Source: Methylotenera sp. (GTDB lineage Bacteria > Pseudomonadota > Gammaproteobacteria > Burkholderiales > Methylophilaceae). From it: a stretch of 37,435 nucleotides of DNA. Of this stretch, positions 16,864-32,604 are shown one piece after another (the stretch's first letter is position 1; every line of letters begins with the position of its first letter). The notes beneath the pieces are model-generated. The model saw only the letters and a program-made list of their open reading frames with translations, had not been told where the DNA came from and did not search any database. The stretch is taken from assembly GCA_020035195.1 (NCBI GenBank), contig JAIQBT010000071.1, positions 1 through 37,435 of the forward strand, in the 5' to 3' direction. Made by a program: the position numbers and the translations under genes.

Positions 16864-17874
16864 TCAACCACCGGTGTGTGACATAAATCGTATGACCGCT
16901 GGGGTAGACCGGTTCAAATCAAAGTCATGGCCTTTAGGTTTAACTTGCATGCTATTGATTATCGCCTGCTTCAACGGGCCATCGTCGTACGGGAAGTCTC
17001 TTAACATCGGCCTTAGGTTGATTCTATTTTCTTGACCCAAACACAGGTGCAATTCGCCTTGGCAACTGATGCGCAGTCGATTGCATGCTTCGCAAAAGTT
17101 ATGGCTATGCGGGGAAATAAACCCTATCTTGGTTTTTTTGCTTGGCACTTGCCAATAACGTGCAGGACCGCAGGTAGTGGCCGTACTGTTAATTAAATCA
17201 TAGCGTGATCTTAGCAACTGCAGTGTTTCATCGTTGCTCACATAACTCGCACTTCTGGAATGTTGCACCTCACCTAGCGGCATTTCTTCTATAAATGAGA
17301 TATCCAAGCCCTGTTCAATGGCAAATGCGGCTAAGGGTAGCGCTTCGTCGTCATTGATACCGCGCATGAGCAAGGCATTCAGCTTAATGGTTTCAAACCC
17401 AGCTTGCTTAGCTACAGCAATACCGCGCAACACTTTATCTAAGTCACCAACACGGGTAATCTTACGAAAACGCGTAGCATTGAGGCTGTCTAAACTGATG
17501 TTCACTCGGTTAACGCCAGCCTGCTTTAATGCGTAGGCATGCTGCTCTAACTGTGAACCATTAGTGGTAATCAGCAATTCTTCTAAACCTGGGAGTCGAC
17601 CTATCGCTTCGAATAACTGCAGCGCATTTTTACGCATCAGTGGCTCACCCCCAGTGATACGTACTTTACGCACACCAAGTTCAACGAACACCTTTACCAA
17701 GCGGGCATACTCTTCTAAGGAAAGGACAGCCTCGCGCGCTAAAAAAGTCATGTTATCAGACATGCAATACACACAGCGAAAATCGCACCTATCAGTAATG
17801 GATAGCCGGATATAATCGATTTCTCGACCAAAACGATCGATCAATAACTTTGGATTGGGTGCCTGTTTATACAT
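16864..17874 (-). CDS. moaA: GTP 3',8-cyclase MoaA (molybdenum cofactor biosynthesis)
   Basis: Radical SAM motif CDFRCVYC, ITGGEPLMRK, C-terminal HNFCEACNRLRISCQGELHLCLGQ, terminal GG. Confidence 0.97.
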   Translation of the reverse strand: MYKQAPNPKLLIDRFGREIDYIRLSITDRCDFRCVYCMSDNMTFLAREAVLSLEEYARLVKVFVELGVRKVRITGGEPLMRKNALQLFEAIGRLPGLEELLITTNGSQLEQHAYALKQAGVNRVNISLDSLNATRFRKITRVGDLDKVLRGIAVAKQAGFETIKLNALLMRGINDDEALPLAAFAIEQGLDISFIEEMPLGEVQHSRSASYVSNDETLQLLRSRYDLINSTATTCGPARYWQVPSKKTKIGFISPHSHNFCEACNRLRISCQGELHLCLGQENRINLRPMLRDFPYDDGPLKQAIINSMQVKPKGHDFDLNRSTPAVIRFMSHTGG

Positions 17875-17880
17875 AAAAAA

Positions 17881-19272
17881 TTAAAACACGTACATAGCTG
17901 TTGCCCAGACTATTTCCTTGTCTCCTTTACGTACAGCAGCCGTTAGACTGCCGCCATACACATCCGACTCCATGAATTTGGCGTACTCCAATTTACCGGT
18001 GATTTTTTTGCTAAACGGATAAGCCACACTTGCGTCAAACTCGGTACCGTACTTATTTCCAAGTTGGCCATTAAGTGTGTCATAGGCTTTATCGGATTTA
18101 AATACATGGTACTCCGCATACAACTTAGCTTTTTCTATGCTACCCGCTAGGCTAACAAAGGTATCTCGTATGCCTTGGCGTGGCGTCACTAAAAATACAT
18201 CTGCCCAACCTTGAAATAAATGGTTAGTACCTAATGGGGTTTGAAATGCATATTTACCACCATTACTTGACAGTTCTTCATGATCCAACCGTATCGACCA
18301 GCCATCGTACATGACACCGCCAGCCAATTTATAATAATGCGCATCAATCAAAGCACTGCCGCCACGGTAATCGTCTTGCTTAGCGTATTCAGCGGTATAC
18401 AGCAACTTCCAGTGATCACTAACTTTGCGTGCCCCATCTAAACGCAAACCAAAAGTCTTGCTGCTGGCATCGGTGGTGGCTGGTGCTAAGTCTTGGCTTG
18501 CACCCAGACCATTACCGGCACTGACCACAGAACTGGCTGCCGTTGGACCGCCGTCCGGCTGACCATTTTGGCTCAAGTTGGCCACATCAATAAAATAGCC
18601 ATAGCCTGTCAATGCCTCACTGACTGAAATGCGGTATTTGGCATTAACGATATCGACATTGCCGCTTCGGCGCGCCGTGTTGATTTGCCGCACTTTATCA
18701 AAATGGGCAGCAAACAACTCGGTATTTGGCAGACTTTTATTCAACACAGAAACGCCATCAAACACCTGCATGTTTTGCCGAAAACCGATGTCGCCAATAA
18801 AGCGCACGTTGTCTAGGTTTAATTGTTGTCGCCCTAAGCGTAGTTTGGTATTTTTAACGCCTGTCCAATCCACATACAACTGATTAATTCCGGTATAGCT
18901 GGGATCAACAATGTTCGGGTAAGTGGCTTTACCAGGTTCGGATAAGTTATCGGCCCTATCGTTAAAATCATGATTAAATTCATGCACATCGGTCAACTGA
19001 GCAGCTAGGCTAAAATCATGCAATGGCGCAGTTTGCCAACCAATCAAGCTGCGTAAGGTAAATGCATGGGCGGTGTCTTGTAAACCATCTTGATCCACTG
19101 ATTCGTAACGCAATCTAAAGTTGGTCATGGGCTCACCTTGCTGTATGGCTTCCAATAAATTCGCGGGCGCGGCCTTAATGGCCTCATCCGCAAATGCTGG
19201 CAAGGAAAAACTGGTAATGCAGGCCAACATACAACTGGCAAACAAGGGGCGCATAGTCTTGGAATGGTTCAT
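17881..19272 (-). CDS. Outer-membrane porin, alginate-export/OprD-like beta-barrel
   Basis: Signal peptide ending LPAFADEA. Barrel-like repeats (FRLRYESVDQDGLQDTAHAFTLRSLIGWQT, WTGVKNTKLRLGRQQLNLDNVRFIGDIGFRQ) and terminal aromatic residues (MYVF). Confidence 0.8.
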   Translation of the reverse strand: MNHSKTMRPLFASCMLACITSFSLPAFADEAIKAAPANLLEAIQQGEPMTNFRLRYESVDQDGLQDTAHAFTLRSLIGWQTAPLHDFSLAAQLTDVHEFNHDFNDRADNLSEPGKATYPNIVDPSYTGINQLYVDWTGVKNTKLRLGRQQLNLDNVRFIGDIGFRQNMQVFDGVSVLNKSLPNTELFAAHFDKVRQINTARRSGNVDIVNAKYRISVSEALTGYGYFIDVANLSQNGQPDGGPTAASSVVSAGNGLGASQDLAPATTDASSKTFGLRLDGARKVSDHWKLLYTAEYAKQDDYRGGSALIDAHYYKLAGGVMYDGWSIRLDHEELSSNGGKYAFQTPLGTNHLFQGWADVFLVTPRQGIRDTFVSLAGSIEKAKLYAEYHVFKSDKAYDTLNGQLGNKYGTEFDASVAYPFSKKITGKLEYAKFMESDVYGGSLTAAVRKGDKEIVWATAMYVF

Positions 19273-19286
19273 TATTATCTCGGTTT

Positions 19287-19976
19287 TTAAAGTTTACGTT
19301 TACTGCGCACTATTTGGTAAGGTCGATTGATATAGCCAAATGGGGCGCTCCATACGTGCACCATACGGGTGAAGGGAAACACCAGAAATACCGTCATACC
19401 AAAAAATAGATGAATTTTGAATATGGTATCCACCTCGTTCAACAGGGCTGGATTGGGGTGTAAATAGACTATGCTTTGCACCCATTCAGCCAAGGCTATC
19501 ATCACATTGGGATTGCCATGGTTGGCATGCCCTATTGAGACGGGAATAGTGGATAAACCCAGCATCAAGGTGATAAGCAACCAAGTCAATATGAATTTAT
19601 CCGAGCCCCGACTGGCTGCTGAAACACGGGCGTTGAACATACGGCGCACCCATAAAATAAGCCCCCCCAGCAAACACATTGCACCAAAAATAGATCCAGC
19701 CCAAATAGCCACCATTTGGTGCGCCATGTCACTTACACCCAGCCCAGTAAATACACCATGCGGGGTCAATAAACCGACCGCATGGCCTCCAAAAATAGCT
19801 AATATGCCTACGTGAAATAGATTGCTACCCAAACGCATATTGGCTTTAGATAAAAGCTGACTTGAATCGCTCTTCCATGTGTATTGTTCACGGTCAAATC
19901 GCTGCAAACTGCCCAGCAAAAAAACACTTAGTGCGATGTATGGATACACCCCATAAAGAAAGTTATGTAAATTCAT
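19287..19976 (-). CDS. narI: Respiratory nitrate reductase gamma subunit
   Basis: FLYGVYPYIALSVFLLGSLQRFDREQYTWKSDSSQLL, FHVGILAIFGGHAVGLLTPH, FPFTRMVHVWSAP; lies after narGHJ. Confidence 0.97.
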   Translation of the reverse strand: MNLHNFLYGVYPYIALSVFLLGSLQRFDREQYTWKSDSSQLLSKANMRLGSNLFHVGILAIFGGHAVGLLTPHGVFTGLGVSDMAHQMVAIWAGSIFGAMCLLGGLILWVRRMFNARVSAASRGSDKFILTWLLITLMLGLSTIPVSIGHANHGNPNVMIALAEWVQSIVYLHPNPALLNEVDTIFKIHLFFGMTVFLVFPFTRMVHVWSAPFGYINRPYQIVRSKRKL

Positions 19977-20001: not shown

Positions 20002-20520
20002 TTAAGCGGCCAATTTAGTTAGCGTAGCGCGGTTATCAATAATTGATAACAATGCCGCATAAGGACTAGCTGCTTTTTTTAGGTTTTCCGTCAACACCGC
20101 AAATACTTTTTTTGCGTCCGATAAAAATACCGTCGCCTCGTTGTCGTCTAAATACGCGGAAAACTCGAGAATTAATGGCAAATAATCCGGCAATTCATTG
20201 CTCATCACTTCCACCCCGTAATCTTTATACAACTCCCCCAAGTCGATTAAAGCCGGACCGCGATTTTTATCGTCGCCAAACAGATGGTGGGTTAGATGCA
20301 GGCTATGCTCTGCCGTCATATCAAAGGTCCGCACATAATCCGCCTGCAATTCCGTCAAAGCCTTACTTTGCAAGTGACTTAAAAATTGCTGTATAGCCTC
20401 ACGTTCAGCTTGGTCTATTTCTGTGCTTAGCTCGGTAAATTCAAGCAACTCAGGGAGATGATCTAGTAACTCTTGATCTGGATAATCCAATAATGTCGAT
20501 AATAATTTGTAAATTTTCAT
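20002..20520 (-). CDS. narJ: Nitrate reductase assembly chaperone
   Basis: Position between narH and narI. YVRTFDMTAEHSLHLTHHLFGDDKNRGPALIDL is a NarJ signature region. Confidence 0.95.
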   Translation of the reverse strand: MKIYKLLSTLLDYPDQELLDHLPELLEFTELSTEIDQAEREAIQQFLSHLQSKALTELQADYVRTFDMTAEHSLHLTHHLFGDDKNRGPALIDLGELYKDYGVEVMSNELPDYLPLILEFSAYLDDNEATVFLSDAKKVFAVLTENLKKAASPYAALLSIIDNRATLTKLAA

Positions 20521-20538: not shown

Positions 20539-22089
20539 TTAACTATTATTATCGCTAGCAGGTGCTAAGGTTTTAGGTTCTACCGTGTCTTTGCGTCTAC
20601 GTGGGAATAAGGTGATTTTTGAAACGCCGTGCGAACTGTCGTTACCAAAGTTAAAACCGTTTTGACCTTGGAAACCAAAAGAATCGTCCAAGGTTTCTTC
20701 CGTGTGCCCAGTCGGAATGACAAAACGGTCTTCGTAATTGGCAATGGCTAGGTAGCGGTACATTTCTTTCGCTTGCTCTTCAGTTATGCCAGCAGCATCA
20801 ATCGCACGTGTATCGACTTGACCTTCAACGTGGATAGAGCGCTGGTAACTGCGCATGGCTATCAATTTATTCAAAGCACTTTCAACTGGCTCAGTTTTAC
20901 CGGCTGTGAGCAAATTAGCTAAATACTGCACCGGCAAACGCATGGCGCCTGCCACAGGAATAGCTCCATCCGGGCCGACTGGCAGATTGCCTTGGTCAAT
21001 TTGCGATTGCACAGGCGAGAGTGGTGGCACGTACCAGACCATGGGCAAGGTGCGGAACTCCGGATGCATAGGGAACGCAATTTTCCAATCCATGACCATT
21101 TTCCAAATTGGCGAATTACGCGCCGCCTCAAGCCAATCTTCATTAATACCTTCAAGACGAGCCGCTTTAATAACCTCAGGATCATTCGGATCTAAGAAAA
21201 TACTGCGCTGTGCTTCGTACAGGTCTTGCGTGTCTTCCATGCTGGCGAATTCTTCAATGCGATCTGCGTCATACAGCATAATGCCGTTATAGCGGATGCG
21301 CCCAACACAGGATTCCGAACAAACCGTCGGCATACCTGATTCCACGCGTGGGTAACAGCCTATGCACTTCTCGGCCTTGCCGGATTCCCAGTTATAGAAT
21401 ACTTTTTTATAGGGGCATGAGCTAACACACATGCGCCAACCACGGCATTTATCCTGATCGACCAATACAATACCGTCTTCTTCACGCTTGTAAATAGAGC
21501 CGGATGGACAAGCCGCCACGCATGAGGCATTCAAGCAATGATTGCAAATTCGCGGTAAATACATGTGAAAGGTATTCTCAAACTGACCGTACATCTCCTT
21601 CTGTATGTTATCCATATTCTTGTCTTTACTGCGCTTGTGATACTCGCCGGCCAGGTCGTCTTCCCAATTTGGACCCCAGGTAATTTTCTCCATGGATTTG
21701 CCGGTAATTTGCGAAATGGGCCGCGCGGTGGGCGTAGCCTCAGATAAAGGTGCATTTTGCAAATGCGCGTAATTGTAGGTAAATGGCTCGTAGTAATCGT
21801 CTATTTCTGGCATGTCTGGATTGGCAAAAATGTTAAGTAGCTTACTGGTGCGACTGCCAGACTTGAGTTCCAGCTTGCCGTTTTTAAGCTCCCAACCACC
21901 ATGCCAAATGTCTTGATTTTCCCATTGCTTCGGGTAACCCACGCCAGGCTTAGATTCCACGTTGTTAAACCAAGCGTATTCGACGCCTTTGCGGTTGGTC
22001 CAGACGTTCTTACACGTAACCGAACAGGTATGGCAACCTATGCATTTATCTAAATTAAAGACAAAGGCGAATTGTGCGCGTACTTTCAT
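20539..22089 (-). CDS. narH: Respiratory nitrate reductase beta subunit
   Basis: Fe-S clusters: CIGCHTCSVTCKNVWTNRKG, CNHCLNASCVAACPSGSIYKREEDGIVLVDQDKCRGWRMCVSSCPYKK. Confidence 0.98.
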   Translation of the reverse strand: MKVRAQFAFVFNLDKCIGCHTCSVTCKNVWTNRKGVEYAWFNNVESKPGVGYPKQWENQDIWHGGWELKNGKLELKSGSRTSKLLNIFANPDMPEIDDYYEPFTYNYAHLQNAPLSEATPTARPISQITGKSMEKITWGPNWEDDLAGEYHKRSKDKNMDNIQKEMYGQFENTFHMYLPRICNHCLNASCVAACPSGSIYKREEDGIVLVDQDKCRGWRMCVSSCPYKKVFYNWESGKAEKCIGCYPRVESGMPTVCSESCVGRIRYNGIMLYDADRIEEFASMEDTQDLYEAQRSIFLDPNDPEVIKAARLEGINEDWLEAARNSPIWKMVMDWKIAFPMHPEFRTLPMVWYVPPLSPVQSQIDQGNLPVGPDGAIPVAGAMRLPVQYLANLLTAGKTEPVESALNKLIAMRSYQRSIHVEGQVDTRAIDAAGITEEQAKEMYRYLAIANYEDRFVIPTGHTEETLDDSFGFQGQNGFNFGNDSSHGVSKITLFPRRRKDTVEPKTLAPASDNNS

Positions 22090-22109: not shown

Positions 22110-25100
22110 TTACTTGGCGCTAATGCCAACGGGGTTAAGTTGTGCTTCGCGCTCGTCGGTGAGCGGTCGCTCCAACCAATCGACGTCTTTATCGGCTATT
22201 TTATGCAAGGCCACCATGGTGTCGCGTTGGCATCCCACCGTACCGTAGTAATTGAAGCCATAAGAAAGCTGCGCATAGCCTCCTATCATATTGGTGGGTT
22301 TCATGATGACCCGCGTTACGGAGTTCAAAATGCCGCCGCGTTTGCCGGTAGAAGGTGAGCCTGGCACGTTTACATTTTTTTCCTGTGCGTGGTACATCAT
22401 GGCCATGCCACGCGGCACGCGTTGCGAAACCACCGCCCGCGCCACTGTTGCGCCGTTATGATTGACCGCTTCCACCCAATCGTTATCTTCTATGCCTACT
22501 GATTTTGCATCGTCTTCAGAAAGCCATACGTATGGGCCACCGCGGAACAAGGTCAGCATACGCAGGTTATCTTGGTAAGAAGAATGGATGCCCCATTTGG
22601 AATGCGGCGTAATCCAATTCAAGGCCAAGTGCGGTTTGCTGGTGACGCTGTTAGGTAAGGAATTTAACTCCCCCAAATCAACCATGGGTTTGTAGGTACA
22701 AAAGCCCTCACCAAAATCCAACATCCATTCGTGATCTTGGTAAAAATGAGCGCGTCCTGTCAGCGTGCGAAATGGAATGTGCTCGTGTATATTGGTGTAA
22801 CCCGCCGTGTAAGACACGTGCTCAGATTCAATACCAGACCAAGTAGGCGCGGTAATGATTTTGCGAGGTTGTGCTTGTATGTCTTTGAAGGTGAATTTAT
22901 CTTCATGTCGCCCCGCATACAAATGGTGATGATCCAAGCCGGTCTTTTTCGACAAGGATGACCACGATTTGTGGGCGACTTCACCATTGGTTTCGGGTGC
23001 CATGCGCATTACAGAATCGCACACCTCTATGTCCTCAGCCAAGGATGGCATACCAAAAGAAATGCCTGGCTCTTTCACCGTGGAATTGTGTTTTTTAAGC
23101 TCCTCATACTCTTGATCGGTGTTCCAATCTATACCTTTAATGTTATTGCCAAGCTTGGTCATTAAAGGCCCTAGGGCGATGAATTTACGGTAAGTGTCGC
23201 CGTATGCGCGCTCCACCACTTTGATAATCGCCATGGTTTTGCCTGGGATGGGTTCGCAGTCGCCTTCTTTCCAATTCTTCACTTCGCCAAAAGGTTGAGC
23301 CAATTCACCAGCCGTATCATGTTGCATAGGTAAGGCCACCACTTCGTGTTTGGTGCCCAAATGCTTTTCCGCTAGTGGCGAGAAAGTTTTTGCCAGGGAT
23401 TTGAAAATTTGCCAATCCGATTTAGATTCCCAGCCTGGAGAAACCGCTTCAGAAAGTGGGTGTATGAATGGGTGCATGTCCGTGGTATTTAAGTCGTTCT
23501 TTTCATACCAAGTGGCGGTAGGCAAAATAATATCCGAATAAGCGCCCGTAGAATTAAGGCGGAAATTGATGTCCACCATTAAATCCAATTTGGCTATGGG
23601 GGCATCTTCGTGCCATTTCACTTCTTTATTAATCCGCCCTGCACCCGACTCTTGTAATACGCCATTTTGCGCACCTAATAAATGCTTAAGGAAGTACTCG
23701 TGGCCTTTTGCCGAAGAGCCAATCAAATTAGCCCGCCATACAAATAAGTTACGCGGCCAATTTACTGGATTGTCCGGATCAGCGTACGCCACATCCAACT
23801 CACCGGACTTCATCTGGGCAGCAATGTATTTACTGACCGAAGCTTCATCGGTAGCACCGCTACTAAAAGCTTCTTCCGCCAACTCAATTGGATTGCGGTT
23901 GAAGTTAGGCATAGAAGGCAACCAGCCCATACGAGCCGCCTTAACGTTGTAATCAGCAATCGAATTGCCCTTATTCTTGCCCTTGCCAGCTGGCGACAAC
24001 AAACTGTCGGCGTTGAGTGTTTCATAACGCCACTGATCAGTATGGAAATACCAATAAGAAGTAGAGTTCGTATGGCGCGGAGGCCGCATCCAATCTAAGG
24101 CGAAAGCAATAGGAGCCCAACCTGCTTGTGGCCTAAGCTTTTCTTGACCGACGTAATGTGCCCAACCACCCCCTGATTGACCAACGCAACCACACATGTG
24201 TAGCAAATTCATGATGGCGCGATAAGCCAAATCATTGTGGTACCAATGGTTAATTGCGGCGCCCATGATAACCATGGATTTACCCTTGGTTTTAGAAGCA
24301 TTGTAGGCAAATTCACGTCCCGTACGCTCGATATCAGCGGCTTTCACCCCGGTGACTTTTTCCGCCCATGCAGGAGTGTAGGCCACATTGGCATCGGCAT
24401 AACTGCTGGCCACATTCTCACCACCCAAACCACGGTCTATGCCGTACTGTGCAATCTGCAAGTCGAACACCGTTGCCACCAATACCTCATCACCATTGGC
24501 CAATTTAACTTTTCTAGCTGGAATATTTCTGTAGAGCAGTTCAGCTTCACCGTGAGTAAAATGTGGGAATCCCACAGAAATCACTTTGTCTCTGTCATCG
24601 ATACAAGACAGTTCAGCGACGATTTCACGGCTGTCAGCCTGTTCCAATAAGTTCCACTTACCTTCCTCGCCCCAGCGAAAGCCTATGCTGCCATTGGGCG
24701 CCACAAAAGCGCAGGACTTACGGTCAAAGACGATGGTTTTCCATTCAGTATTATTGGTTTCACCTAATGCCCCATCAAAATCCGATGCGCGTAAAAACCG
24801 ATCAGACACGAAGCCATCACCTTGTTTACGTAACATGACTTGCATAGGTAAATCCGTATATTTACGGGCATAATCTTGAAAATAAGCATCCTGCGCATTG
24901 ATGTAAAACTCTTTTAAGGCCACGTGCCCCATAGCCAAAAAGGCTGCAGCATCCGTTCCTTGTTTGATCGGCATCCATAAATCAGAGAACTTGCAGAATT
25001 CAGCATAATCTGGTGCCATGGCGACGATTTTTGCGCCTTTATAACGCACCTCTGATGCAAAATGAGCATCTGGGGTCCGCGTCATGGGCAGATTCGCCCC

Positions 25101-25871
25101 GGTAATAATGATGTAGGTTGAGTTATACCAGTCTGCCGCTTCCGGCACGTCGGTCTGCTCACCCCAAGTCTGCGGACTGGCCGCGGGCAAATCACAATAC
25201 CAATCGTAAAAAGATCCGCAGGCCGCACCGATGAGGGAAAGGAATCGGGAGCCTGCGGCGTAAGAAATCATGGACATCGCTGGGATCGGGGAAAAACCAA
25301 AAATTCGATCTGGGCCCCATTTTTTGATGGTGTAAACGTTGGCGGCGGCGATAATTTCATTCACCTCATCCCAAGAAGTACGGACAAATCCCCCTAAGCC
25401 ACGGACAGCTGTATAGGCTTTACGTTTAGTGGCATCGGATTGTATGGCCGCCCAAGCCTCTACTGGATCCTTGCCGCTCATGCGCTCAATGCGATACATG
25501 TCCAGCAATCGGCCGCGTATCAAGGGATGTTTTATCCGGTGCGGGCTGTATAAGTACCAAGAAAATGATGCCCCGCGCTGACAACCACGCGGCTCATGGT
25601 CGGGCAAGTCATCACGTGTGCGCGGGTAATCGGTTTGTTGCATTTCAAATGACACCAAACCATTCTTAACAAAAATCTTCCAGGAACAACCGCCGGTACA
25701 ATTCACACCGTGTGTGGAGCGCACCACTTTATCGTGTTGCCAACGGTGGCGATAAGCATCTTCCCATTGACGATCTTCGTTAGTAACAATGCCGTGTTCA
25801 TTAGAGAAGGTGGCTTTTACCTTGTCAAAAAATTTCAGCCTATCCAAAAAGTGACTCATGTTTCTCTCCAT
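22110..25871 (-). CDS. narG: Respiratory nitrate reductase alpha subunit (alternative start at the internal MSHFLDRL, about 25859)
   Basis: RWQHDKVVRSTHGVNCTGGCSWKIFVKNGLV...QQTDYPRTRDDLPDHEPRGCQRGASFSWYLYSPHR, a clear NarG N-terminus. Confidence 0.98.
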   Translation of the reverse strand: MERNMSHFLDRLKFFDKVKATFSNEHGIVTNEDRQWEDAYRHRWQHDKVVRSTHGVNCTGGCSWKIFVKNGLVSFEMQQTDYPRTRDDLPDHEPRGCQRGASFSWYLYSPHRIKHPLIRGRLLDMYRIERMSGKDPVEAWAAIQSDATKRKAYTAVRGLGGFVRTSWDEVNEIIAAANVYTIKKWGPDRIFGFSPIPAMSMISYAAGSRFLSLIGAACGSFYDWYCDLPAASPQTWGEQTDVPEAADWYNSTYIIITGANLPMTRTPDAHFASEVRYKGAKIVAMAPDYAEFCKFSDLWMPIKQGTDAAAFLAMGHVALKEFYINAQDAYFQDYARKYTDLPMQVMLRKQGDGFVSDRFLRASDFDGALGETNNTEWKTIVFDRKSCAFVAPNGSIGFRWGEEGKWNLLEQADSREIVAELSCIDDRDKVISVGFPHFTHGEAELLYRNIPARKVKLANGDEVLVATVFDLQIAQYGIDRGLGGENVASSYADANVAYTPAWAEKVTGVKAADIERTGREFAYNASKTKGKSMVIMGAAINHWYHNDLAYRAIMNLLHMCGCVGQSGGGWAHYVGQEKLRPQAGWAPIAFALDWMRPPRHTNSTSYWYFHTDQWRYETLNADSLLSPAGKGKNKGNSIADYNVKAARMGWLPSMPNFNRNPIELAEEAFSSGATDEASVSKYIAAQMKSGELDVAYADPDNPVNWPRNLFVWRANLIGSSAKGHEYFLKHLLGAQNGVLQESGAGRINKEVKWHEDAPIAKLDLMVDINFRLNSTGAYSDIILPTATWYEKNDLNTTDMHPFIHPLSEAVSPGWESKSDWQIFKSLAKTFSPLAEKHLGTKHEVVALPMQHDTAGELAQPFGEVKNWKEGDCEPIPGKTMAIIKVVERAYGDTYRKFIALGPLMTKLGNNIKGIDWNTDQEYEELKKHNSTVKEPGISFGMPSLAEDIEVCDSVMRMAPETNGEVAHKSWSSLSKKTGLDHHHLYAGRHEDKFTFKDIQAQPRKIITAPTWSGIESEHVSYTAGYTNIHEHIPFRTLTGRAHFYQDHEWMLDFGEGFCTYKPMVDLGELNSLPNSVTSKPHLALNWITPHSKWGIHSSYQDNLRMLTLFRGGPYVWLSEDDAKSVGIEDNDWVEAVNHNGATVARAVVSQRVPRGMAMMYHAQEKNVNVPGSPSTGKRGGILNSVTRVIMKPTNMIGGYAQLSYGFNYYGTVGCQRDTMVALHKIADKDVDWLERPLTDEREAQLNPVGISAK

Positions 25872-25936: not shown

Positions 25937-27547
25937 TTAGGGATTTTTTATTTCAGCACCGGCGCGTAAATAGAACCACCAGTTCAACAACAAACACAGC
26001 GCATAAAACACGGCGAAGCCATACATTGCCATCTCTGGCGTGCCTGCTTTGATTTGCCCTTTAATCACTTCTGGAGCGATGAATGACCCGTAAGCGGCCA
26101 CCGCAGAGGTCCAACCCAATACCGGGCCGGCCTGTACGCGATCAAAGATGACGCCCACTGTTCTAAAGGTAGAGCCATTACCTAAGCCTGTTGCAGCAAA
26201 CAACACGACAAAGGTCAGTAAAAACTGGTTAAAGTAAATCTCTGGTGTGGCTGAGTGATAGGCTTGCATCATGACGTGTCCGGCATAAATAGAAGCCAAA
26301 ACCATCGCCGCGGAAATAACTTGGGTGACAATGGACCCGCCGACCTTGTCTGAAATCCAACCACCTACTGGGCGAATTAGCGCACCAACAAAAGGGCCTA
26401 TCCAAGCATAGGTGAGCGCAGACGGTGCATTAGGATTCTTAATATGCATCCAAATGCCGCCAGCGGCATCAAAAATATGTTTATCGCCAAAAATGACCGT
26501 GATTGATAAAGGCAATGCCATGGAAAAACCGATGAAAGAACCAAAGGTAACCAAATACAAGGCCGTCATAGACCAAGTGTGCTTGTTTTTAAAAATAGAG
26601 AACTGCTTGGCGATATTTTCTTTCATGCTACCAAAGGCGGCCAGCTTCATGATCAACAAGGTGCTGACAATAATCAGCGGCATAGCCAGCCACATATTCA
26701 GTAAACCTAAGCCAGTCGGCGCTGGTAAATAAAGATATAAGCCAGCAATAGCAGGTAAGAAAGCCAGCGTATAAAGCCAGATTATTTTTATAAAAGAAGT
26801 AAAAGTACTGCGTGCATCTGCTGATATTGGCAACAGGTTGTTCATGCCGCAGAAGCTAAGTACCGCTAACGGAAATAGAAGTAACAGCCAGGTGAAACCA
26901 GCGTTTTGAATAAATGTTGGCGTGCCTGCAGGAATCTTTCCAAAAATCCAGCCACTGTCCTTTACTAGCACAGTGGCGTCACCACCTAAAGCACCAAACA
27001 CCCCAACCGTCATTACCAATGGGATGAGAATCTGCATGGTGGTTACACCAAAATTACCTAGGCCTGCATTTAGTCCTAAGGCGGTTCCCTGCAAACGTTT
27101 AGGGAAAAATGTGCTGATATTGCTCATAGAGCTGGCAAAATTCCCACCACCTACACCAGACCAAAGTGCCATCAATTGAAATGTCCACAACGGCCACTCT
27201 GGATGTTGCAAAACAACACCAGTTCCGATAGCCGGACTTAACAGCATAGCGGTTGTCAGAAAAATGGTATTACGGCCACCGGCCAACCTAATCAAGAATG
27301 ATGCGGGGATACGCATGGTGGCGCCAGCCAAACCGGATATAGCCGTCAAGGTAAACAACTCATCTTTACTAAACGGAAAACCAAGATTACTCATTTGCAC
27401 GGCAATAATGCCCCACATCAACCAGACAGCAAAACCACAAAGTAAAGCTGGCACCGAAATCCACAAATTACGGTAAGCTATTTTTTTACCTGTAGACTCC
27501 CAAAAGGCTTTGTCTTCTACGTTCCATGCTTCAACATTCGCTGCCAT
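25937..27547 (-). CDS. narK2: NarK-type nitrate/nitrite MFS transporter, second copy (536 aa)
   Basis: MFS fold. NarK motifs GVGGGNFASSMSNISTFFPKRLQGTALGLNAGLGNFGV, and GLGNGSTFRTVGVIF near the C-terminus. Confidence 0.93.
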   Translation of the reverse strand: MAANVEAWNVEDKAFWESTGKKIAYRNLWISVPALLCGFAVWLMWGIIAVQMSNLGFPFSKDELFTLTAISGLAGATMRIPASFLIRLAGGRNTIFLTTAMLLSPAIGTGVVLQHPEWPLWTFQLMALWSGVGGGNFASSMSNISTFFPKRLQGTALGLNAGLGNFGVTTMQILIPLVMTVGVFGALGGDATVLVKDSGWIFGKIPAGTPTFIQNAGFTWLLLLFPLAVLSFCGMNNLLPISADARSTFTSFIKIIWLYTLAFLPAIAGLYLYLPAPTGLGLLNMWLAMPLIIVSTLLIMKLAAFGSMKENIAKQFSIFKNKHTWSMTALYLVTFGSFIGFSMALPLSITVIFGDKHIFDAAGGIWMHIKNPNAPSALTYAWIGPFVGALIRPVGGWISDKVGGSIVTQVISAAMVLASIYAGHVMMQAYHSATPEIYFNQFLLTFVVLFAATGLGNGSTFRTVGVIFDRVQAGPVLGWTSAVAAYGSFIAPEVIKGQIKAGTPEMAMYGFAVFYALCLLLNWWFYLRAGAEIKNP

Positions 27548-27557
27548 CCCGTTCTCC

Positions 27558-28826
27558 CTAAATTGTTACCGCTTTATTTTTTGCTTGACGTTCGTGATGC
27601 CTACCGATTTTCACTGGGCGCACTTCTGTCCAATACATCCAAATTAGCGATACCCATACAATCCCGAACATCAACATAAAGGCCGACGAACGTACGCCTG
27701 TCAGGTCAACTAAAGCGCCAAACATAATAGGCATTAAAAAACCACCCATGCCGCCTGCCAATCCCACCACGCCAGAAACCACGCCTATGTTTTGTGGGTA
27801 ATCATCGGAGATGTACTTAAATACCGATGCTTTACCTATCGCAAAAGCGATGCCCATGGTAAACATGATGATGGTGAAGAGTTTGGCTGTTAGGCCAACA
27901 TGAAAAGTCTGCGTACCTTTCACGGTAAGTATGGAAATGTCAGTTTGCGGGTAAGACAAAAAGAATAAACAGACCAAGGATACCCAGAGCACCCACCATG
28001 TAATGGTGTGTGCTCCGAATTTGTCAGAAAAATAACCGCCAACCGCACGGAGTAAACCACCGGGGATACTGAAAGCGGCAGCCATCAAGGCGGCGCTCTT
28101 TAGGTCAAAACCATATTCCGTGATGTAGTACTTCGTCATCCACAGGGCTAAAGCAACGTAACCACCAAACACAATCGAGTAATACTGGCTGTACTTCCAT
28201 ACTTTAGGGTCTTTTAAAACCGCCAACTGCTCACGCATGCTTACCGTGCTGCTATTCTTATGAGCTGGATCGGAGTAAGTAAACAACCAAAACAGCAGGG
28301 TCGTAAAAAACATCAAAACCGCATAGACCTGTGGCACCATAGTCCAACCATAGGCAACAACAATGAGGGGAGCGACTAACTTAGTTACAGCGGCACCGGT
28401 ATTGCCTGCGCCAAAAATACCCATAGCTAAACCTTGTCTATTTTTTGGAAACCACCGAGCACAATAGGCAATCCCTACGGTAAAGGAGCCCCCAGCGATA
28501 CCAACAAAAAGACCTGTCATGAGAAATTGCCAATATTCCGTACATCTGGAAATTAGATAAATAGGCGCCACGGTCGACAACATCAAACTAAAGAACACCA
28601 ACCGCCCACCGAACTTGTCAGTCCACATACCTAATGGAAGTCGAATGAGCGAACCAGTGAGTACCGGCATTGCGATTAAGATGCCAAACTGCGTTTCATT
28701 TAGGCTCAACATAGCTTTGATCGGAATGCCAATCACGGCAAACATCATCCAGATCATGAAACACACCGTAAAAGAAAGTGTGCTCATACCAACGACTGAC
28801 CAAGCTTTATATTGTTGTGTAGCCAT
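27558..28826 (-). CDS. narK1: NarK-type nitrate/nitrite MFS transporter, first copy (422 aa)
   Basis: MFS with NNP-family motif GIAGGSFTVGIAYCARWFPKNRQGLAMGIFGAGNTGAA. First gene of the nar operon. Confidence 0.92.
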   Translation of the reverse strand: MATQQYKAWSVVGMSTLSFTVCFMIWMMFAVIGIPIKAMLSLNETQFGILIAMPVLTGSLIRLPLGMWTDKFGGRLVFFSLMLSTVAPIYLISRCTEYWQFLMTGLFVGIAGGSFTVGIAYCARWFPKNRQGLAMGIFGAGNTGAAVTKLVAPLIVVAYGWTMVPQVYAVLMFFTTLLFWLFTYSDPAHKNSSTVSMREQLAVLKDPKVWKYSQYYSIVFGGYVALALWMTKYYITEYGFDLKSAALMAAAFSIPGGLLRAVGGYFSDKFGAHTITWWVLWVSLVCLFFLSYPQTDISILTVKGTQTFHVGLTAKLFTIIMFTMGIAFAIGKASVFKYISDDYPQNIGVVSGVVGLAGGMGGFLMPIMFGALVDLTGVRSSAFMLMFGIVWVSLIWMYWTEVRPVKIGRHHERQAKNKAVTI

Positions 28827-28915: not shown

Positions 28916-28929
28916 TTGACTTACATCAA
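28916..28929 (-). promoter_or_regulatory. FNR/ANR-type binding site upstream of narK1 (TTGATGTAAGTCAA on minus strand)
   Basis: Matches TTGAT-N4-ATCAA with one deviation (G in GTCAA). Located 90 bp upstream of the narK1 start. Confidence 0.8.
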
Positions 28930-29025: not shown

Positions 29026-29712
29026 TTACGGCTGTGGGCGAATCAAGCCATGCTCAACAGCAAACACTGCGGCCTGAACACGGCTAGATAAATTGAGTTT
29101 ACGCAGTATGCCCTGCATATGAATTTTAACGGTAGATTCCACCAAATCAAGACTACGGGCAATTTCTTTATTGCTAGCACCACGTGCCAGAAGAAGCATG
29201 ACTTCGCGCTCACGTGGTGAAAGTTTTTCCAAGCTGACCTGCGCATGGCTACTGTCTTTAGCCGGCTGGCGTATGGCATCGGCCAACTTATTCGCCATAA
29301 GCGGCGACATCACTGATTCAGCCTTGGCTGCCCGACGTATGGCGTCCAATAAAAAATCGGTTTCTATATTTTTTAACAAATAGCCGCGTGCGCCAGCACG
29401 CAAGGCCTCTAACAAATCCTCGGCATCTTCTGATACGGTCAACATGATAATTTGCGCCAACGGCACTTCTTCACGCAATAAGGAAATGATTTGCAATCCA
29501 CTGGTAAGCGGCATATGCAAATCCAGCAAAACAACATCCGGCCGCAACTTTTTGGCGCTTTTAACACCATCCAAGCCATCCCCTGCTTCGCCCACCACTT
29601 CGAAACCAGCTTGACGCTCTAATAACAGTTTGATGCCACTACGAAACAATGTGTGGTCATCAATAATTAAGACTCGTATCGCATTCATAAGTAGCGCTTT
29701 TCTCTTGGTCAT
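29026..29712 (-). CDS. narL: Nitrate/nitrite response regulator NarL (likely start MNAIRVLIIDDH at about 29688, or the upstream MTKRK)
   Basis: Receiver domain VLIIDDHTLFRSGIKLLLERQ...DVVLLDLHMP and a LuxR-type HTH LSPREREVMLLLARGASNKEIARSLDLVESTVKIHMQGILRKL. Confidence 0.93.
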   Translation of the reverse strand: MTKRKALLMNAIRVLIIDDHTLFRSGIKLLLERQAGFEVVGEAGDGLDGVKSAKKLRPDVVLLDLHMPLTSGLQIISLLREEVPLAQIIMLTVSEDAEDLLEALRAGARGYLLKNIETDFLLDAIRRAAKAESVMSPLMANKLADAIRQPAKDSSHAQVSLEKLSPREREVMLLLARGASNKEIARSLDLVESTVKIHMQGILRKLNLSSRVQAAVFAVEHGLIRPQP

Positions 29713-31139
29713 TCAGCCAGTATAAGACATATATGGGTGCCTTTAGCTGCGCTAGATCTAAAAAAAATCTGCGCACCAATGCGATGCGCACGCTCACGCA
29801 TGATGCGCAATCCGACATGACTATCACCCGCATCCTGGGTTACGTCAAAACCTACCCCATTATCTTGGATATTAATCACGCACTGTTCGGCACATGCCAG
29901 TTCCACATTAATTAAACTGGCATGTGCATGCTTACGGGCATTAGAAAGCGACTCTTGTAGGATATGCAAAACCTGTAGCACCCGCTCGGCTGACAACACC
30001 GGCATTTCGCCCGTTATATTAAAGCTAGTTTTAATGCTAGTTTGCCCTTCAAACTTCTCAAGTGCGCCACTTATAGCCGTTGCTAAATCCGTTCCACCAA
30101 TACGCGTGCGGAAATGCACTAATAGCTCTCGCACATCATCATAACTTTCCTGAACGCCTTCACGAATTTTAACTAATCCTTGTTCAACTTCATTATGATG
30201 CGCCTGCTTAAAATCTTCTTGCAACAATTGCACCTGGATATTAAGAAATGCTAATGACTGCGCGATGCTATCGTGTAATTCTTGTGCCAACAAATTACGT
30301 TGTTCAGTTATAACCATTTCCTTATCTAAGGTCGCCAACTCAATATTCTTAGATTCTATGCTACGGGTTTTTTCTTCGACTCGCTGTTCCAAGGTGTTGT
30401 AAAGATCCTGCAATTCATCGGCCATGCGATTAAAACCTACCGCGAGTTCACCAAGTTCATCTTGGCTATTGACAGGTAAGCGAACTGCGAAATCACCAGT
30501 GGTCATACGTTGCATGCCCTCACGCAATTGGGTGACGGGCCGCACCACCATACGCATAAATAAATAAACCAACAAAACCGTACCCAGCAACGCTAACACC
30601 ATGAGAACAATCTGCAAACTACGTAAATACAGAGTGGCTTTGGCGTTGCTGCGCTCGATCAAACTGACCAATGTATTAATACTGACCACATACCGCTCCA
30701 ACATGGGGCGGTAATTTTCTAAAGCAATTTGCTGATCTGCTTTATTGTTGCTATTGAGAATTTTTGTAATTTGCGGTTTTATATTTCCTTGCCAAGACTG
30801 AATTAAATAGGCCATTCTGGATCTGATCTCAATATTTTTCGGTAAAAATAATGGTCGTTTTGGGTTGCCCTGAGCTATCTCCAGTAAGCTCGATTCGAAT
30901 GCGCTCATTTCTTTCCGTATCGCTTGCTGCAGCTCTACTGTAGGCGCAAGCACTTGCTGCTGCAATAAATACGCAATACGGTAAGAGCGCATACGCTCTC
31001 GCCCCGCGTCATTAATCGCGGCCGCGCCACCTTCTAGACGCCAAGATGCCATCAATGTGGCTCCTATAGCTAGCAACGCAACAAAAAAATATAGCAGCAA
31101 TAACCCTATAATTTTGTCGCGAATTCTTTGCTTAATCAT
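29709..31139 (-). CDS. narX: Nitrate/nitrite sensor histidine kinase NarX
   Basis: P-box-like INDAGRERMRSYRIAYLLQ in the periplasmic domain, HAMP region, and HisKA_3 motif LAQELHDSIAQSLAFLNIQVQLL with an HATPase domain. Overlaps narL by 4 bp. Confidence 0.93.
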   Translation of the reverse strand: MIKQRIRDKIIGLLLLYFFVALLAIGATLMASWRLEGGAAAINDAGRERMRSYRIAYLLQQQVLAPTVELQQAIRKEMSAFESSLLEIAQGNPKRPLFLPKNIEIRSRMAYLIQSWQGNIKPQITKILNSNNKADQQIALENYRPMLERYVVSINTLVSLIERSNAKATLYLRSLQIVLMVLALLGTVLLVYLFMRMVVRPVTQLREGMQRMTTGDFAVRLPVNSQDELGELAVGFNRMADELQDLYNTLEQRVEEKTRSIESKNIELATLDKEMVITEQRNLLAQELHDSIAQSLAFLNIQVQLLQEDFKQAHHNEVEQGLVKIREGVQESYDDVRELLVHFRTRIGGTDLATAISGALEKFEGQTSIKTSFNITGEMPVLSAERVLQVLHILQESLSNARKHAHASLINVELACAEQCVINIQDNGVGFDVTQDAGDSHVGLRIMRERAHRIGAQIFFRSSAAKGTHICLILAE

Positions 31140-31299: not shown

Positions 31300-32508
31300 T
31301 CAATTAGGCCTATCTTGCCAATAGATCGCCAAGTATTTAATAGCCCAAATCCAAAAGCACAGCAACCAAAGCAAGGCTGATCCAAGATAAAAATGCGTTC
31401 GGCTTAAGAAATCTAAACCAGGCAATTCTGAAAAAATTCGAAGTATCGCTACAGATTGCAATGCCAGAAAAATACCCCATGTTAAGCGATCAGCATTAAG
31501 CATTCTCCCTGAATGACCTAACGTAACACGCGTAGCCATGGCCATTAACACAGAACTAAAGTAGCCTATAGTAATGGCATGAAGTGGTGCCTTGGCTAAT
31601 AGCCATTGTCCAGTAAAGCATAGGATTAAACTTTGTAGCGCATATAAAGCCATGGCCAACCCAAACCAAGCAAAGCCTATATGTAACATACCCAGTATAG
31701 GCACCCTAAGGCTATCGCGTAAATGCCAAGCGCACGTTAAATATATTGCGCTGAGAGCCATAGGCAAATCAACCATCCACGTCCAAGCTTGCCATCCGAC
31801 CAGCTCTAAAAATCCATGTATAAGTGCGAGGCTCGGCACTACTGCCAAGATCCAATTGGGGCGCACAATTTTGTAATCCGGTATGACATTGGCTGAGAAA
31901 AATGGAATCATTCTATGGCTCACTGCAAAAAATACCGGCAATAAAATCAACCAAATCCCACCTACTTTGGCAATGGCTATTAATAAGTCATTGTTGCTAG
32001 CAATTCCAGCCAACAACAACCAGCCAAAACCAAGTACAACCGAAGTGATGGTTGCATGTCGCTTATCGGGATGCTTTGCACGAAGGTAGACACGTAATAA
32101 TGCATACAACCCTAGCCCCCAACCTGTCAGAAATAATAGGTAGGCTATTCTTAAAATAATGAGACTGAGAAACAGGCCTACATAAAACATAATAGAGCCA
32201 CTAGCTAGAAATAAAAAAGCTGCTAGATATGCCTTGCGTTCGACTTCTTCGCCATTCATCCAGCGTGGAAAAGTAGTCATTAAAAACCCGAAGATAAAGA
32301 ATGGGAAAAAACCATAAATCATCAGAAAAGCATGCGCGTCGACGGAAGACATAGTCCATGCAATTGGCGCATACAGTCCCGTATAACGTCCCGCCAGATC
32401 AGCTATCCACCAAGACACAGTCAGTAAAGATTGTATCGCCCCCCAAAAAAAGAAAACCCGATGGGGAGCCGACGTAAAAATTTTCCACCATTTAACTAAA
32501 TTGTTCAT
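31300..32508 (-). CDS. nnrS: NnrS family heme-copper membrane protein
   Basis: About 12 hydrophobic segments. HRVFFFWGAIQSLL, HAFLMIYGFFPFFIFGFLMTTFPRWM, HAITIGYFSSVLMAMATRVTLGHSGR match the NnrS pattern. Confidence 0.9.
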   Translation of the reverse strand: MNNLVKWWKIFTSAPHRVFFFWGAIQSLLTVSWWIADLAGRYTGLYAPIAWTMSSVDAHAFLMIYGFFPFFIFGFLMTTFPRWMNGEEVERKAYLAAFLFLASGSIMFYVGLFLSLIILRIAYLLFLTGWGLGLYALLRVYLRAKHPDKRHATITSVVLGFGWLLLAGIASNNDLLIAIAKVGGIWLILLPVFFAVSHRMIPFFSANVIPDYKIVRPNWILAVVPSLALIHGFLELVGWQAWTWMVDLPMALSAIYLTCAWHLRDSLRVPILGMLHIGFAWFGLAMALYALQSLILCFTGQWLLAKAPLHAITIGYFSSVLMAMATRVTLGHSGRMLNADRLTWGIFLALQSVAILRIFSELPGLDFLSRTHFYLGSALLWLLCFWIWAIKYLAIYWQDRPN

Positions 32509-32590: not shown

Positions 32591-32604
32591 TTGATATATA
32601 TCAA
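32591..32604. promoter_or_regulatory. Perfect FNR/ANR/DNR-type box TTGATATATATCAA upstream of nnrS
   Basis: Exact TTGAT-N4-ATCAA within a 20-bp perfect palindrome AGCTTGATATATATCAAGCT (32588-32607). Confidence 0.88.

Follow-up and report, generated by a model that had tools for sequence, protein, structure and literature searches.

A putative nitrate/nitrite outer-membrane channel encoded between narI and moaA in the nar operon of a Methylotenera-like bacterium

In most schemes of nitrate respiration and assimilation, passage across the outer membrane is left to unspecified porins, and this step is rarely assigned to a gene. Operons of the Pseudomonas type have the gene order narK1K2GHJI-moaA. 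The MOMP of Campylobacter jejuni is a general major porin, for which we know of no linkage to nitrate. In Pseudomonas aeruginosa, the Occ/OprD channel OpdQ is raised by nitrate via NarXL, and the authors of that study speculated that it is a nitrate portal (PMC4694141). In Occ channels, loops L3 and L7 fold inward and make the constriction, which is poorly conserved except for the basic-ladder residues, in keeping with the differing substrates of these proteins (PMC3260308). Our search of the open-access literature on nitrate porins, and on alginate-export proteins together with nitrate, found no description of the porin subfamily reported here.

The DNA analysed, which we call the window, is a stretch of 37,435 nucleotides from a Methylotenera-like genome of the Methylophilaceae; the source assembly has 1.25 Mb in 83 contigs and is 80% complete. 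On the minus strand the gene order is narX-narL, then narK1-narK2-narG-narH-narJ-narI-porin-moaA, and the operon's nearest relatives are those of Methylotenera, with up to 95% identity for NarG and up to 97% for NarH. The features are given below in this order; narK1 to narI and moaA are the set of genes confirmed by Pfam/NCBIfam.

31300-32508, minus strand: nnrS
29709..31139, minus strand: narX-type sensor kinase (PilJ-HAMP-HisKA_3-HATPase)
29026..29712, minus strand: narL-type response regulator
28916..28929, unstranded: FNR-like box TTGACTTACATCAA, 1 mismatch, 90 bp upstream of narK1
27558..28826, minus strand: narK1-type nitrate/nitrite MFS transporter (inner membrane)
25937..27547, minus strand: narK2-type nitrate/nitrite MFS transporter (inner membrane)
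22110..25871, minus strand: narG
20539..22089, minus strand: narH
20002..20520, minus strand: narJ
19287..19976, minus strand: narI, 14 bp upstream of the porin gene
17881..19272, minus strand: NOx-linked outer-membrane porin gene, 463 aa, PF13372 (Alginate_exp) subfamily
19189..19272, minus strand: putative Sec signal peptide, residues 1-28, read by eye as ending ...SLPAFA before DEA
16864..17874, minus strand: moaA (GTP 3',8-cyclase), 6 bp downstream of the porin gene

The porin ORF starts with ATG, has no internal stops and, as judged by eye, ends in phenylalanine, as is typical for outer-membrane barrels. Intact homologues, 63-78% identical to the window's porin, are found in many genomes, and the gene is therefore real. 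Both the ORF coordinates and the predicted barrel agree with the preliminary description, which had placed a 463-aa barrel at these distances from narI and moaA. We infer that narI, the porin gene and moaA are co-transcribed; a terminator-like site was looked for on the minus strand of the narI-moaA interval, and none was seen. The FNR-like box upstream of narK1 is suggestive of a possible anaerobic promoter region of the nar operon, with the FNR-box count across the whole window (up to 2 mismatches) at chance level; as both the FNR-box and the promoter scans are near chance across the window, we put little weight on them. A perfect FNR-type palindrome, TTGATATATATCAA, is located at window positions 32591-32604, 83 bp upstream of the nnrS start.

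The gene context of related porins was surveyed in two samples, both picked irrespective of that context: 300 genomes of the order, with porin matches in 31 of them, and the best 80 loci from a contig scan of GTDB, in which Methylophilaceae are over-represented. After removal of duplicates, 108 distinct loci were retained. The window and a set of hand-read loci supplied the marker genes, and labels were assigned by tblastn thresholds combined with reading; Nar, Nas, nirS/nirK, norB or FNT genes within ~10 kb counted as NOx markers. Such markers lie near 83 of the 108 homologous loci; among 35 other PF13372 loci of this order, which served as controls, 1 has such a marker nearby (Fisher p ~1e-15; the value is inflated because related loci are treated as independent, and it says no more than that the difference is large). 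When the order sample is counted by itself, 24/35 loci are NOx-linked, spanning nine families, while for loci with the L7 signature described below and at least 5 kb on each side the proportion is 53/59. The nearest NOx gene is at most 400 bp away in 46 loci, and on the same strand in 41. Approximately 20-25% of the homologues have no NOx gene nearby, partly as a result of short contigs.

The sole positive control locus adjoins a type II DMSO-reductase-like enzyme and moaA. Reading by eye of locus L207 (G145), at ~1.8-10 kb, places a different PF13372 protein near a 914-aa NarG-like enzyme of the type II DMSO-reductase family, with a NarH-like subunit, a FecR-like protein and moaA also among the neighbours; this is possibly another oxyanion reductase with an outer-membrane channel of its own. 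At three loci on alphaproteobacterial and Micavibrio-like contigs (L111, L129 and L134), the porin was seen by eye to adjoin nrdD/nrdG-like anaerobic ribonucleotide reductase genes, not NOx genes. A conserved membrane protein of ~285 aa is encoded just downstream of the porin at L121 and L133, with a pattern that recalls nitrate/nitrite-sensing domains; a Pfam search with the L133 copy gave no match.

The NOx-linked porins are found in respiratory, assimilatory and denitrification settings. In the first, the porin gene adjoins narKGHJI in Beta-, Gamma- and Alphaproteobacteria. In the second, it forms part of a cluster with the order nasT-nrtA-nrtB-nrtC-porin-(cobA)-nirB-nasK-nasC in Methylophilus, Methylovorus and Methylotenera, and its position varies in Nas clusters elsewhere; several close relatives within the same family sit in such assimilatory clusters, and Methylophilus methylotrophus (L083) has a Nas porin. 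In the third, it is accompanied by nirS and cobA-like genes (L035, L092, L095) or by copper nitrite reductase-like genes, often together with SCO-type genes (L040, L059, L131, L142); one further locus has norCB near the porin (L045) and another an FNT nitrite/formate channel (L109). A tree of the 83 labelled porins requires at least 19 changes among the Nar, Nas and Nir settings. Nitrate/nitrite is what these settings have in common. The subfamily ranges over Alpha-, Beta- and Gammaproteobacteria, Verrucomicrobiota and Nitrospirota. The idea of a nitrate/nitrite channel, put forward in the preliminary description for a nar operon, is strongly and independently backed by the occurrence of the same subfamily in assimilation and nirS/nirK clusters, and is at the same time no longer specific to respiratory nar operons.

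Within nar operons, the position of the porin gene is conserved: narI-porin-moaA or narI-carbonic anhydrase-porin-moaA is kept in 8 other Methylotenera-type contigs, and narGHJI-porin also occurs in one gamma- and one alphaproteobacterium, so the arrangement extends to other classes. A lack of such conservation had been named in the preliminary description as a ground for rejecting its proposal, and the survey did not bear it out. Even among loci whose NarGHI are 79-97% identical, however, at least three diverged lineages of the porin fill the slot. In the narI-moaA slot of Methylotenera, one lineage is that of the window's porin, with 68-74% identity among relatives; in a second (L088, L091), the porin is only 46-47% identical to the window's while NarGHI reach 88-95%, and its sister porins adjoin nirS. 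At the gammaproteobacterial L133, NarGHI are 79-86% identical to those of the window, whereas the porin, directly after narI, has 33% identity and groups with Methylophaga-type porins. That diverged porins of a single subfamily have come to fill the same slot suggests selection for the function of that subfamily. The carbonic-anhydrase-like gene between narI and the porin (beta type, ~215-225 aa, with the motif CCDSRCDP by eye) was seen in several Methylotenera (L067, L068, L073, L088 and L091), among them M. mobilis 13 (L068), and is absent from the window's operon.

The porin is nevertheless optional, an accessory component instead of a requirement: in the order sample of 300 genomes, 8 of 100 narG-bearing genomes have it within 10 kb of narG. 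Since most narG genomes have no such porin near narG, other porins usually suffice, and the presence of narG and nirB across the same 300 genomes likewise marks the porin as optional and makes for no strong phylogenetic-profile argument.

By sequence, the porin matches PF13372 (Alginate_exp) over residues 52-319 with 45.6 bits (cut-off 25.2, E=5e-12). Searches of PDB sequences with phmmer and with profiles found no relatives, so a fold search was needed; viral contigs searched for relatives gave none either. An AlphaFold2 model from a 62-sequence alignment, used in place of an earlier 19-sequence model with poor confidence in L3/L7, is an 18-stranded barrel with a pLDDT of 85.9 and a pTM of 0.85. 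In Foldseek, this model groups with MOMP, with Occ/OprD channels (OccK9, OpdK, OpdQ and others) and with AlgE, at TM scores of ~0.6 on query length and 0.6-0.75 on target; the Occ channels and MOMP rank level with or above AlgE. The label "alginate-export/OprD-like" from the preliminary description is thus upheld as regards the Pfam family and an 18-stranded Occ/AlgE-like fold, but not as regards the OprD profile PF03573, which had no match in the porin's own genome at E<=0.001 and did match in a control genome. Porin_1, Porin_4, Porin_O_P and OprD are all without a detected member in this 80% complete genome, and a specific NOx route may be needed for this reason.

Two extracellular loops stand out in the alignment.

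18766..18822, minus strand: extracellular loop L3, residues 151-169, LNLDNVRFIGDIGFRQNMQ, predicted constriction loop
18172..18270, minus strand: extracellular loop L7, residues 335-367, ...YAFQTPLGTNHLFQGWADVFLVTPRQG, predicted constriction loop and subfamily signature

Conservation peaks in L3 and L7 (3.33 and 3.30 bits), compared to 0.9-2.3 bits in the other extracellular loops. The window's porin matches both signatures, DNxRFxGxxxFRQxxQ for L3 and TPLGTxHxFxGWADxFLxTPxxGxxD for L7, and the latter is present in 102 of 107 surveyed homologues, but in none of the 35 control PF13372 loci of the order. By analogy with the Occ channels, L3 and L7 of the window's porin probably fold into the lumen. 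As the Occ constriction is poorly conserved and these loops are near-invariant, one common substrate would be the simplest reading. Among strand positions facing the lumen, where the lumen and outside faces were assigned by hydrophobic alternation only, 7 basic and 8 acidic positions have a charge conserved to at least 70%. Compared with the Arg/Lys basic ladder that lines the lumen of Occ channels, the conserved basic residues here are R53, R55, R74, R145, R277, K289 and R328, with R157 and R165 in L3, and acidic residues are about equally many. The lumen charges are thus roughly balanced, and anion selectivity is not evident from charge; the pore envisaged in the preliminary description is borne out as a predicted 18-stranded barrel, with no basic excess among its conserved lumen charges.

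Such balanced charges, together with the 18-stranded porin fold and the homologues that adjoin anaerobic ribonucleotide reductase genes without NOx genes, would suit a general small-solute porin that is merely co-regulated with anaerobic/nitrate metabolism and raises permeability with no NOx preference. We consider this unlikely: the assimilatory clusters of the type nrtABC-porin-nirB are not anaerobic, which shows that the porin is linked with nitrate as such and not with anoxia, and the nearly invariant L3/L7 differ from those of the many-substrate Occ family. It is quite improbable that the porin is mainly an outlet (or inlet) for nitrite and not an inlet for nitrate. While NarGHI makes cytoplasmic nitrite, which must leave, and nirS, nirK and FNT genes are among the neighbours, most loci are nrtABC-nirB assimilation clusters, where nitrate is imported and nitrite is reduced in the cytoplasm; a passive channel would, moreover, carry both ions. 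Nar and Nas are both molybdoenzymes, moaA is a neighbour in Methylotenera, and one other PF13372 protein adjoins a type II DMSO-reductase-like enzyme and moaA, all of which could be explained by a molybdate channel. This has very little in its favour, however, when set against the nirS, nirK and norB neighbours that lack molybdenum, the nitrate-type partner transporter nrtABC of the Nas loci, and the lack of a modABC link among the neighbours read. An exporter of alginate or another polysaccharide, as the Pfam name and the PF13372 match imply and as the AlgE fold match would allow, is hardly credible and was already unlikely from context, given that the neighbours are nar/nas/nir genes with no polysaccharide genes recognised near the porin or its relatives, and that Occ channels and MOMP match the fold as well as or better than AlgE.

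We thus favour, with a probability of roughly 0.7, an outer-membrane diffusion channel for the NOx anions nitrate and nitrite, 18-stranded, constricted by L3/L7 and made with the nar operon, a reading supported by gene context and the predicted fold. That nitrate and nitrite pass, that they are preferred, and that nitrate flows inward while nitrite leaves or enters according to the pathway, we infer. Once nitrate respiration is switched on, the porin, NarK1/NarK2, NarGHI and MoaA would be made together, so that the outer-membrane NOx route is matched to the inner-membrane route through NarK1/NarK2. Nitrate would enter passively through the 18-stranded channel, narrowed by the inward-folded L3/L7, and be carried inward by NarK; NarGHI would then reduce it to nitrite in the cytoplasm, and the nitrite would leave, or move on, by the reverse path. 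A more far-reaching proposal, to which we give slightly less than even odds, is that of a dedicated NOx-selective family with the invariant L3/L7 as the NOx filter, which operons for respiration, assimilation and denitrification would each have acquired independently, and which would account for the so far unassigned passage of the outer membrane in the nitrate metabolism of these bacteria.

A family that tracks NOx genes in several phyla, and whose members give way to their cousins at the same position, makes the outer-membrane step of nitrate use testable, and it suggests a likely function for genes that currently carry the annotation of alginate export proteins. If the channel is selective, it could matter for low-nitrate use by methylotrophs and by denitrifiers in lakes and groundwater.

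Among known channels, OpdQ comes closest as a precedent, albeit from a different sequence family. The window's porin shares with the Occ/OprD channels of P. aeruginosa an 18-stranded barrel with long L3 and L7 loops, but only 10-15% identity, and the porins of the window's type differ in sitting inside nar/nas/nir clusters and in having nearly invariant L3/L7. AlgE belongs to the same Pfam family, PF13372, by sequence and also has 18 strands, yet identity is ~12-14% and the window's porin has no alginate genes nearby. The MOMP of C. jejuni, likewise an 18-stranded porin, is the top fold match at 15% identity. The operon itself follows the Pseudomonas pattern, with the order narK-narK-narG-narH-narJ-narI-moaA and narXL close by, and departs from it in the porin inserted between narI and moaA.
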